42,492 nt of DNA from Actinomycetota bacterium. GTDB taxonomy: Bacteria; Actinomycetota; CADDZG01; WHSQ01. This document shows, piece by piece, positions 24,193 to 27,696 of this stretch. Under the pieces are notes generated by a model, which made no database searches, was not told where the DNA came from, and saw only the letters and a program-made list of their open reading frames with translations. The position numbers and the translations under genes are program-made. Each line of letters opens with the position of its first letter. Positions within the stretch are counted from its first letter, which is position 1. The stretch spans positions 1 to 42,492 of the forward strand of contig JACDDL010000002.1 in assembly GCA_013817045.1 (NCBI GenBank), read 5' to 3'.

Positions 24193-24537
24193 TCAGTTGC
24201 GCCGCTCTTTCACCTTGGCCTTCTTGCCGACTCGGGAACGCAGGTAGTAGAGCTTGGCGCGCCTCACCTGGCCGCGGGTCCGGACCTCTATCTTGGCAAT
24301 CATCGGGGAATGGAGCGGAAAGGTGCGTTCGACTCCAACGCCGAATGAGACCTTGCGGACGGTGAATGTCTGGGAGAGCTGGCTCCCTCTGCGCCGGATG
24401 ACCACGCCCTCGAACACCTGGACGCGCTCGCGCTCTCCCTCGACCACACGCACGTGCACCCGCACCGTGTCCCCGGGCCGAAACTCGGGCAGATCGGTCT
24501 TCAGATAGGGCCGCTCGACGATGTCGGTCGGGTTCAT
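24193..24537 (-). CDS. rplS: Large ribosomal subunit protein bL19
   Basis: 50S protein at the subunit interface. It has 114 residues, the normal length, and an AGGAG ribosome-binding site 7 bases before the ATG. Motifs are [44 protein letters not shown] and RRAKLYYLR. trmD, rimM and rpsP, its usual upstream partners, are missing; the next gene upstream is an unrelated gene on the opposite strand. Confidence 0.96.
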
Positions 24538-24597: not shown

Positions 24598-24615
24598 GTA
24601 GCCCGGACGGGATTC
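24598..24615. repeat. 18-bp direct repeat, distal copy (att-like)
   Basis: GTAGCCCGGACGGGATTC, identical to 25947-25964. Bases on both sides differ between the copies, so the match is exactly 18. It equals the last 17 bases of tRNA-Glu plus one flanking base. Confidence 0.85.
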
Positions 24616-24727
24616 AGACCTCGAGGGGCGGGGCGATGTAGGCCCCCGACCTGGAGAATCGAACTCTTTTGCCTGGTCAGAGGGGGAGTTTAGCCTATGG
24701 GCCCCGGGTCTCGCGCGATCGCGGAGC

Positions 24728-24756
24728 TTGGGTGAGTGGGGTGACGTTGTGATTTA
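24728..24756 (+). promoter_or_regulatory. Candidate promoter of the secreted nuclease-like gene
   Basis: TTGGGT, a 17-base spacer and GATTTA in an unusually A/T-rich patch about 77 bases before the ATG. Spacing is good, match to consensus moderate. Confidence 0.3.
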
Positions 24757-24833
24757 ATCGCCCGGTTCGCTCCGCTGCCATGAGAGACGGGGGCCGGGTG
24801 GGGCGCCGTACGAAGGGCACTAGGGAGGTCGAC

Positions 24834-25865
24834 ATGGCACAGGACGGCGGCAGGAGGAGTGTCCCCAGGGTCTTGGTCAACTGGGCTGTTCTCGCTGGTC
24901 TCCTGATCTCGAGTCTTTCAGGTGTTGTCCCCGCCGCCGCTGCCCCTGCGGAGAAGGCCTCCCCGAACGGACAGGTCGTCGTGATCACGGTGAACGCTCG
25001 GCAGATTCTCAGACACAGCACAGCCCGAATGGAGCAGTTGGCGATCGCTTTGAGGAACCGTCCCACGGCCTCAGACGGCAATTACTATGCACCGGACGTC
25101 ATCCTCGTGAACGAGGTCTCGGCCGCCGACCTGGCGACCGTGAGGAACCATCTGAACAACCTCTTTTCCAGCAACTACAAAACGTTTGGGGCAACCTCGG
25201 ATGATGTCAAGACGAAGTTCTTGGTCAACTCCACGACGATGTCGACAACGTCGTCCCGGACCTGGGTCGACGACTGTATCTCCAGCGTCAAATACCAGCT
25301 CATCAATGTCAAAGAGGCATCGAGCGGCATTTCATTGACCGTCGGCGGCGTTCACTTCCGAGCGGATTACGGCGGTTCGGGCGGCAGCGTTTGCAAGAAC
25401 CAGAACGCAAAGAAGGCCCGCAAGCAACTCGGGAGTCAAGGGACAAAGGGCTCTGTCATCGGCGACTTCAACAAGCGGGCAATGCTTACGGAAAGAGAAT
25501 GCGACCCGGATGAGAGGTCGGGTGCTGAATCTTGGTACAAGGACATGACCGAGTATTCCTCCGTGGATCAACGTGCCTACGTCGATGCAGTGGGGGCCTA
25601 CAACCGAGCGAGTGGTCTCACGATGTTCAATGAGTGGACTCATGAGCAGGAGGACCTCACCACTCTTTGCAACGGGACGACCGGATATCGCCGGAATCGC
25701 ATCGACTACATCTTCGTCGGCACCACATTGCGGTCTCTCGAGGCCCACGCCGATCACCCAGGCTGGGCGAACGAGGCTCAGCCGGGAACCATAGGGTGCA
25801 CGCCGGCGCCTCAATGCAAGTACTCGGACCACCGCTTCGTCTGGGGCCGTATCAGATTGTCGTAG
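24834..25865 (+). CDS. Secreted endonuclease/exonuclease/phosphatase (EEP) family protein
   Basis: Predicted exported phosphodiesterase. GGGAGG five bases before the ATG at 24834 fixes the start; 343 residues. Residues 1-37 form a signal peptide: RR in the N-region, a hydrophobic core WAVLAGLLISSLSGVV and an AAAA cleavage area. EEP-fold motifs follow in order: VNARQ (N54), VNEVSAAD (E94, metal ligand), GGVHFRAD (H174), GDFNKR (210-215), RRNRIDYIF (D291) and KYSDHRFVWG (D332, H333). Six cysteines in the mature part may form disulfides. This set fits DNase I-like nucleases or phosphatases; the substrate cannot be inferred. It lies between tRNA-Glu-derived repeats, on the opposite strand to its neighbours and with lower GC, which suggests transfer. 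Confidence 0.85.
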   Translation: MAQDGGRRSVPRVLVNWAVLAGLLISSLSGVVPAAAAPAEKASPNGQVVVITVNARQILRHSTARMEQLAIALRNRPTASDGNYYAPDVILVNEVSAADLATVRNHLNNLFSSNYKTFGATSDDVKTKFLVNSTTMSTTSSRTWVDDCISSVKYQLINVKEASSGISLTVGGVHFRADYGGSGGSVCKNQNAKKARKQLGSQGTKGSVIGDFNKRAMLTERECDPDERSGAESWYKDMTEYSSVDQRAYVDAVGAYNRASGLTMFNEWTHEQEDLTTLCNGTTGYRRNRIDYIFVGTTLRSLEAHADHPGWANEAQPGTIGCTPAPQCKYSDHRFVWGRIRLS

Positions 25866-25929
25866 TGGCGAGCTGCAACTTTTTACGGGCCGCGTGCCGA
25901 ATCGCGACAGGGCGCGAGGGCGTTGATCG

Positions 25930-25943
25930 AGAGCAAAGGCTCT
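25930..25943 (-). other. Short hairpin after tRNA-Glu
   Basis: AGAGC, four bases, GCTCT, placed five bases beyond the tRNA-Glu 3' end. No T-run follows, so it is at most a weak processing or termination element. Confidence 0.3.
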
Positions 25944-25946
25944 GAA

Positions 25947-25964
25947 GTAGCCCGGACGGGATTC
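25947..25964. repeat. 18-bp direct repeat, copy inside tRNA-Glu
   Basis: Same 18 bases as 24598-24615. It covers the T-arm distal half, the 3' acceptor strand and the discriminator of tRNA-Glu, a favoured crossover segment of tyrosine-type integrases. Confidence 0.85.
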
Positions 25965-26022
25965 GAACCCGTGATCTCCGCCTTGAGAGGGCGGCGTCCT
26001 CGGCCAACTAGACTACCGGGCC
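25948..26022 (-). tRNA. tRNA-Glu (anticodon CTC)
   Basis: 75 bases read on the minus strand. The acceptor stem GGCCCGG pairs with CCGGGCT (first pair G-U). The anticodon stem CCGCC/GGCGG encloses the loop CTCTCAA, so the anticodon is CTC, reading GAG. The T-arm is ACGGG TTCGAAT CCCGT. Discriminator A; CCA is not encoded. It follows tRNA-Gln by 12 bases in the same direction. Its 3' end is duplicated 1.35 kb away. Confidence 0.95.
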
Positions 26023-26034
26023 ATGCCTCGTGCG

Positions 26035-26107
26035 CTGGGGCGCCTGGATTCGAACCAGGACTAACGGAACCAGAATCCGCCGGGCTGCCGGGTTACCCCA
26101 CGCCCCA
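26035..26107 (-). tRNA. tRNA-Gln (anticodon CTG)
   Basis: 73 bases read on the minus strand. The acceptor TGGGGCG pairs fully with CGCCCCA, and the first pair is U-A, as expected for tRNA-Gln. The anticodon loop TTCTGGT gives CTG, reading CAG. The T-arm is CCTGG TTCGAAT CCAGG. CCA is not encoded. It lies between gltX (upstream) and tRNA-Glu, all in one direction. Confidence 0.95.
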
Positions 26108-26259: not shown

Positions 26260-27696
26260 TCACAGGGAGGAGAGCCGCGCCAGCGTTTCGGCGCGCCCCA
26301 GAATCTCGAGCGACTCGAACAGGGGCGGCGACACGAGCGTCCCGGTGACCGCCGCCCTGATCGGTTGAAAAGCCTGCTTTGGCTTTAGATCCCGCTCCGC
26401 CGCCACCCGGCGCAGGGTCTCCTCGATCGTTCCGGCGGTCCACTCCTCGGCGTGCCCCAGGGCGCCGGCGACCTCCTCGAGGTACGCTCCCTGGCCCTCC
26501 AGCAGCTTCGCCGCCTTGGCGTCGGGAGGAACCCGGCCGAACAGGAACCGCACCATCGGAGGTGCCTCCTCCAGTCGCTTGAGCCGCTCGTTCAGCAACG
26601 GGGCGACCGCAGCCAGGAGCCTCCTGCCCTCGTCCGAGTCGGCCGGAAGTCCCGCGTCGACGCAGACGGGTACGAGGCGCTCGGCCAAGGCCTGCGGGGA
26701 CAGCAGGCGAATGTAGTGGCCGTTCAGCCACTCGAGCTTGGGGACGTCGAAGATGGCCGGATTCCTGGTCACGCGCTCGAGGGTGAACTTCGCAACCAGC
26801 TCGTCGACCGAGAAGATGTTGGTCTTCTCGTCGAAGGACCACCCCAGCAGGGCCAGGTAGTTGACCACCGCCTCGGGAAGGAAACCCATCCGCCGGTAGG
26901 CGCTGACGGCGACGTCCCCCCACCTCTTGGACAAAGGTTTGCCGTCGGGCGCCACGAGGAGCGGAAGATGCGCGAACACCGGAGGGTCGGTGACGCCCAT
27001 CGCCTCGCGTATCAAGAGCTGCCTCGGTGTGGCCGCCACGAGATCCTCGCCTCGGACGATGTGGGTGATCTCCATCGCCACATCGTCGACCGCCGCCGCG
27101 AGCATGTACGTCGGCGAGCCGTCGGAGCGCTGGACGACGAAATCGGGGATCTGATCGGTGCGGGTGGCGATTGGACCGCGCACGACATCGTCGAAGGCGA
27201 TCGTGCGGCCCTCCGGGGTCCGGAAGCGAAGGGCATGGCTCCGCCCCTCGGACTCGAACGCCGCCCGCTCGCTGTCGGTCAGGTTGCGGCATCTGCCGTC
27301 GTATCCGGGGGTGCGGCGGGCAGCATGGGCGCTCGCCCTGCGTTGCGCGAGCTCCCCGGCGGTGCAGTAACAGCGGTAGAGGTGGTTTGCGTCCTCGAGC
27401 GCAGCCGTCACCGCTCTGTATCGGTCAGAGCGCTCACTCTGGCGATAAGGCCCGTAGTCGCCGCCTACCCCGGGCCCTTCATCCCAGCTCAGGCCAAGCC
27501 AGCGGAGATCTTCGATGACGGCATCGAAGGCGTCCTGAGTGACGCGGCTCTGGTCGGTGTCCTCCACCCGAAGAACGAATACGCCCCCGTGCCGGCGGGC
27601 GAGGAGCCAGTTGTACAGCGCCGTGCGGGCGTTGCCGACGTGGATGGAGCCACTGGGCGCGGGCGCTATGCGGGTTCTTACGGTCCCTGGAGGCAC
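26260..27696 (-). CDS. gltX: Glutamyl-tRNA synthetase, probably non-discriminating
   Basis: Charges tRNA with glutamate. It has 478 residues and a GTG start. Class I motifs: SGSIHVGNART (HIGH equivalent at 19-22) and KPLSKRWGD (KMSKS equivalent, LSKR at 255-258). VLRVEDTDQSR and the IVRGEDLVAATPRQ region belong to the Glu enzyme. No glnS is seen, while tRNA-Gln lies immediately downstream and gatCAB is encoded 7 kb away. From known actinobacterial biology this makes it likely that the enzyme also glutamylates tRNA-Gln for later amidation; that part is inference. Confidence 0.94.
   Translation of the reverse strand: MPPGTVRTRIAPAPSGSIHVGNARTALYNWLLARRHGGVFVLRVEDTDQSRVTQDAFDAVIEDLRWLGLSWDEGPGVGGDYGPYRQSERSDRYRAVTAALEDANHLYRCYCTAGELAQRRASAHAARRTPGYDGRCRNLTDSERAAFESEGRSHALRFRTPEGRTIAFDDVVRGPIATRTDQIPDFVVQRSDGSPTYMLAAAVDDVAMEITHIVRGEDLVAATPRQLLIREAMGVTDPPVFAHLPLLVAPDGKPLSKRWGDVAVSAYRRMGFLPEAVVNYLALLGWSFDEKTNIFSVDELVAKFTLERVTRNPAIFDVPKLEWLNGHYIRLLSPQALAERLVPVCVDAGLPADSDEGRRLLAAVAPLLNERLKRLEEAPPMVRFLFGRVPPDAKAAKLLEGQGAYLEEVAGALGHAEEWTAGTIEETLRRVAAERDLKPKQAFQPIRAAVTGTLVSPPLFESLEILGRAETLARLSSL

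Follow-up and report, generated by a model that had tools for sequence, protein, structure and literature searches.

A duplicated tRNA-Glu 3' end around a predicted secreted nuclease gene: probable remnant of an integrative element in an uncultured actinobacterial genus

The window analysed here is a whole stretch of 42,492 nucleotides from an Actinomycetota genome (contig JACDDL010000002.1, positions 1 to 42,492), in which the 3' end of a tRNA-Glu gene is found twice, on either side of a single gene. We consider it probable (at roughly 0.8) that this unit is what remains of an integrative element. In an ancestor of the genus, the element would have used site-specific recombination to insert at the 3' end of tRNA-Glu(CTC); it would since have lost its integrase and left a nuclease gene behind. 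We read the unit as an old, integrase-less attL/attR remnant, similar to the cis-mobilizable elements (CIMEs) discussed below.

Such a scar is familiar and ordinary in kind, not a novel type of system. The locus is of value chiefly as an example of element decay, the case being well bracketed and datable: the site is empty in ten genera, retains one surviving gene here and is nearly erased in the sister species.

Results and discussion

The repeat and its setting

The features of the locus are the following (G001 being the sister species):

24193 to 24537, minus strand: rplS, downstream of the insertion point (gene call)
24598 to 25946, no strand: insertion unit (distal repeat and foreign segment, 1349 bp), absent from the tRNA-Glu/rplS gap of 12 relatives
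24598 to 24615, minus strand: attR-like distal repeat copy, 60 bp upstream of rplS (18/18 identity to the tRNA-Glu 3' end; 16/18 in G001)
24616 to 24702, minus strand: element-side block adjoining the distal copy (79% over 87 bp in G001)
24687 to 24694, minus strand: GCTAAACT, candidate -10 element for a new promoter of rplS (suggested by its conservation in G001)
24834 to 25865, plus strand: gene for a predicted secreted EEP-family nuclease, 343 aa, catalytic motifs intact (motifs; dN/dS against a paralogue)
24834 to 24944, plus strand: signal peptide MAQDGGRRSVPRVLVNWAVLAGLLISSLSGVVPAAAA (sequence pattern, read by eye)
25947 to 25964, minus strand: attL-like proximal copy, part of the intact tRNA-Glu as its 3' end (repeat comparison, tRNA call)
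25947 to 26022, minus strand: intact tRNA-Glu (CTC) (ARAGORN; Rfam, 68 bits)
26034 to 26107, minus strand: tRNA-Gln (CTG) (ARAGORN, Rfam)
26260 to 27696, minus strand: gltX, upstream of the tRNA pair (gene call)

The two copies of GTAGCCCGGACGGGATTC constitute an exact direct repeat of 18 bp (24598–24615 and 25947–25964), in the same orientation and 1.35 kb apart, as an earlier note on this DNA had described; Rfam places the tRNA 3' end at 25948 (versus 25947). When the whole 3.03-Mb genome was scanned with up to two mismatches allowed, only these two sites were retrieved, and the 18-bp match is by far the longest that tRNA-Glu(CTC) has elsewhere in the window. A chance origin of the repeat is thus ruled out, both by the genome-wide scan and by the lengths of the matches between the tRNA and the window. 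The content of the interval (24598–25964) also proved to be as first described: a single coding gene, the nuclease, on the strand opposite to the tRNA and beginning with a signal peptide (recognized by eye), and no integrase. No transfer gene was found between the two repeats either.

Empty sites in related genera

In a sample of 16 genomes from this uncultured actinobacterial family, rplS and gltX were located and the gap between them was read (G005 and G010 are omitted from the count of empty sites). In 12 relatives, belonging to ten other genera, gltX, tRNA-Gln and tRNA-Glu are followed by rplS at a distance of 38–102 bp, and the gap contains no gene and one copy of the 18-mer (with a single mismatch in one genome). 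The earlier note had proposed to look in relatives for a tRNA-Glu lying directly before the sequence now below position 24598, and this is what these 12 genomes display. No second tRNA-Glu was detected at the gltX–rplS locus in any relative examined.

As the distal copy is located 60 bp from rplS in the window, deletion of 24598–25946 gives back the arrangement that is usual in the family. Past the core, the distal copy continues as CTAC-GA, like four of the empty-site relatives, and the proximal copy as CTAC-TT; this minor point fits a distal copy that would be the original tRNA 3' end. Vertical inheritance of the gene as part of the core, which had been named beforehand as the outcome that would speak against an insertion, applies only in part: the insertion is old and common to the genus, but it is not core in the family.

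The occupied site of the sister species

Only one other genome of the genus is available (G001), with an L19 protein 98% identical to that of the window species. Its contig C58 (L069) begins in tRNA-Gln and tRNA-Glu, with 127 bp identical to the window, and the site is occupied: approximately 0.4 kb separate tRNA-Glu from the distal copy, itself 54 bp from rplS. This insert retains the final 12 nuclease codons (25/28 bp), placed and oriented as in the window, together with the conserved block that adjoins the distal copy. The remainder of the G001 insert, including the segment from the tRNA to the nuclease stop, yielded no alignment to the window insert; independent deletions may be the explanation for this segment.

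The nuclease remnant and the distal copy in G001 thus indicate that the insertion is older than the split of the two species, and that it was pared down separately in each of them. An insertion in the stem of the genus, with decay since then, is supported by these sequences for a genus sampled by two genomes. The ends of the G001 contigs C226 and C58, which lie in the tRNA region, overlap by 91 bp, and each contig breaks at the start of the run identical to the window, which we would guess to be an effect of co-assembly. Directly after tRNA-Glu in G001 (L069:139–150), a 12-nt stretch was also observed that repeats the anticodon-arm region of this tRNA perfectly in inverted orientation (AGGGCGGCGTCC), possibly by chance in GC-rich DNA.

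The nuclease gene and its relatives

The best start of the nuclease gene is the ATG at 24834, which follows a good ribosome-binding site (GGGAGG) and was preferred to 24780. The Pfam model PF03372 (Exo_endo_phos) scores 20.9 bits on the window protein, below the cut-off of 24.5, and matches all nine of the nine subfamily members, with a best E of 1e-9. The EEP motifs are present (ILVNEV, GGVHF, GDFN, RIDYIFV and YSDHR), and residues H174, D211, N213, D291, D332 and H333 are invariant across the subfamily. We take the conserved N, E, H, D-x-N, D and D-H residues to have the catalytic roles that they are known for in the EEP family. The AlphaFold2 model (pLDDT 39) was too poor for the four-layer alpha/beta sandwich fold to be judged.

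From these motifs and the signal peptide, the gene product is predicted to be a secreted EEP-type nuclease that cuts DNA or RNA, and its extracellular substrate would be nucleic acid or another phosphodiester. A dN/dS of approximately 0.13 against the paralogue C280, a comparison in which dS is saturated, indicates that the gene is under purifying selection. The protein shares its catalytic motifs with the EEP superfamily (PF03372; nearest solved relative, DNase I), the key residues being invariant in its subfamily, but unlike the superfamily at large this subfamily is restricted to one actinobacterial family, falls below the Pfam cut-off and is secreted. No description of it was found in the libraries searched; the predicted function is conventional.

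Two further copies of the nuclease are present in the genome, C280 (65%) and C235 (50%). The window gene is sister to the pair formed by C280 and its G001 orthologue, with all other genera outside. On sequence grounds, the gene carried by the unit is the genome's third member of a secreted EEP nuclease group specific to the family, and its nearest relative is the chromosomal paralogue of the genus. The subfamily occurs in 6 of the 13 genera of the family, and no member was found outside the family among the 397 Actinomycetota genomes sampled. An origin of the gene in phages, plasmids or viral contigs was considered and rejected, no relatives being found in the phage, plasmid and IMG/VR collections searched. 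In the flanking DNA examined, no tRNA lies near C280, C235 or the homologues in G003, G007, G008, G010 and G013.

The GC content of the gene is indeed lower than that of its surroundings (58.7% in the coding sequence versus 66.3% in the window), as had been reported. However, the paralogues are equally low (58.8% and 55.2%), so that low GC is a trait of this nuclease family in the genome rather than of the insert; it provides no evidence for this insertion and is ruled out as a mark of recent transfer.

Several observations on the relatives of the gene can be added. Upstream of the C280 orthologue in G001 (L072:640–3750, compared with L004:6217–6764), segments of approximately 0.7 kb, 1.5 kb and 0.2 kb and a short inverted piece differ, and the C280 locus is thus plastic too. 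The relatives in G007 and G008 and the paralogue C235 (L087, L088 and L005) have extra C-terminal stretches, fibronectin-like by eye, and the window copy is a bare domain. A second nuclease copy in G007 (G007:C18:161897–162850) is split into several frames with a stop, and is apparently a pseudogene.

Comparable elements at the same tRNA end

The 397 Actinomycetota genomes were searched with the 18-mer, one mismatch being allowed, for pairs of copies on the same strand. Such pairs were found in two further genomes (G172 and G196), from two other families. In G172 (L141:2710–11107), an exact repeat of 51 bp from the 3' part of tRNA-Glu(TTC) surrounds 8.3 kb. Beside its distal copy lies the gene for a tyrosine integrase, and the element also encodes a primase-polymerase, a DUF3631 protein and an HK97-type capsid protein; with these genes it is phage-satellite-like. 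The same tRNA 3' core (17/18) is duplicated in the same orientation as in the window, but the longer repeat, the larger size and the integrase, primase-polymerase and capsid genes set this element apart from the window unit, and it carries no nuclease of such kind. In G196 (L140:3596–8444), an exact repeat of 44 bp, starting at the anticodon of tRNA-Glu(CTC), surrounds an island of 4.8 kb with an HTH/ImmA-type regulator and genes of unknown function; it adjoins a dinB-like gene and lies close downstream of gltX and tRNA-Gln. No integrase was recognized among the open reading frames tested in this island.

These two genomes indicate that elements of the phylum use this tRNA end as an attachment site, and G196 is a further case of integrase loss. 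G172 was the only source of a complete element sharing the core, and it belongs to another family. In Actinomycetota, the gltX, tRNA-Gln and tRNA-Glu neighbourhood has received elements on more than one occasion, and in two cases no integrase is recognized any longer. The tRNA-targeted insertion first suggested for the window is thus well supported by the intact tRNA, the same-strand copy of its 3' end, the 12 empty sites and these longer-repeat elements.

Among described systems, CIMEs are decayed integrative elements (ICE or IME) that keep attL and attR and are devoid of genes for integration or transfer (PMC5704250). The window unit resembles them in its bounds, direct repeats of a tRNA 3' end, and in the lack of such genes, and differs in its size of 1.35 kb and its single cargo gene, its att sites being putative. 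In Dehalococcoides, islands inserted at ssrA are bounded by a 20-bp direct repeat with the insertion in the middle of the T-loop; 15 of them have no integration module, and some are thought to be fixed (PMC3146451). The window unit is likewise integrase-less, with a repeat of a tRNA-like 3' end and a boundary in the middle of the T-loop, but it concerns tRNA-Glu rather than ssrA, and a single old insertion rather than tandem arrays; the Dehalococcoides islands use a serine recombinase (PMC3146451).

Preferred and alternative explanations

In the course of events that we favour, site-specific recombination would have brought an integrative element into the 3' end of tRNA-Glu(CTC) on the stem lineage of the genus, with a tyrosine integrase as the probable agent, by analogy with G172. 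The tRNA would have been made whole again next to the element, and its original 3' end, along with the native flank, displaced to the far side, beside rplS. Each of the two known species would then have lost the integrase and the other genes of the element in its own way, and a single cargo gene, the nuclease, would survive intact and under purifying selection in the window species. Against this reading stands an identity of just 18 bp, versus 44–51 bp in G196 and G172, and no fragment of an integrase was recognized in the insert of the window species or of G001. The failure of the segment between the tRNA and the nuclease stop to align between these species also counts against it. The nuclease could also have entered an existing remnant later, since its nearest relative is the genus's own paralogue.

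The earlier note had left two readings side by side, a cassette moved in trans and a decayed island, of which the island fits better, G001 being more decayed and no copy being known elsewhere. A minimal mobile cassette, in which the repeat–nuclease–repeat unit would itself be the mobile entity, cut out and inserted by an integrase supplied in trans, agrees with the survival of both flanking copies and with a unit that contains one intact gene and little besides; a helper is even conceivable, as the genome has about a dozen Phage_integrase matches. However, none of these integrases is linked to the tRNA-Glu site, the genus carries the insertion as a fixed feature, in decayed form in G001, the nuclease family was not retrieved from the phage, plasmid and IMG/VR contigs searched, and a search for the same unit elsewhere, as the note had advised, returned no second copy from the genome itself or from the relatives searched. 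We therefore hold such a cassette to be improbable, and still more doubtful is the idea that it is mobilized at tRNA-Glu by an integrase encoded elsewhere and spreads the secreted nuclease within the family. Least probable of all is a local duplication, in which the C280 nuclease would have been copied between tRNA-Glu and rplS by illegitimate recombination, with the repeat as a by-product of repair. The sister position of the window gene to the C280/G001 pair and the restriction of the subfamily to one family among the 397 genomes speak for it, but homology to the C280 locus is confined to the coding region (window 24969–25852, 71%), and a by-product would be unlikely to copy an exact tRNA end, the usual target of integrases, in the right orientation.

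The distal copy could instead derive from a second tRNA-Glu, the locus having once held two copies with the nuclease gene between them. Indeed, the G001 sequence upstream of the distal copy aligns weakly to the tRNA body (GGCCGA..CGCC..GCCCTC-CAAGG; p = 0.0075 over 110 nt, and p = 0.046 for the anticodon arm alone), in an alignment with shuffles that needs a deletion of approximately 13 nt. In the window, by contrast, the same tests gave p = 0.46 for the whole body and p = 0.25 for the anticodon-arm part, and the fall from 18/18 identity to approximately 25–40% without gaps (5/20, then 8/20) is too uneven for uniform decay. Moreover, Rfam finds no tRNA at the distal copy, the relatives have a single tRNA-Glu at the locus, and the G001 trace is explained equally well by an ancestral att core that was longer, like those of G172 and G196. 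Homology past 18 bp, which would have pointed to a decayed tRNA, is thus not seen in the window, where shuffled alignments and Rfam both leave a second tRNA unsupported, and we give this reading little chance, hardly more than the spreading cassette. With the two genomes of the genus and by analogy with the longer repeats, the G001 trace would fit an original core that began in the anticodon arm and reached the 3' end.

The region upstream of rplS

As a side effect, the insertion leaves 1.35 kb between the tRNA pair and rplS. A structured rplS leader that includes the displaced tRNA end was considered and rejected, as this region folds no better than its shuffles in both species (z approx. 0). 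A promoter scan upstream of rplS retrieved no -35 element or sigma-70 match; the conserved GCTAAACT may nevertheless be the -10 element of a new rplS promoter.
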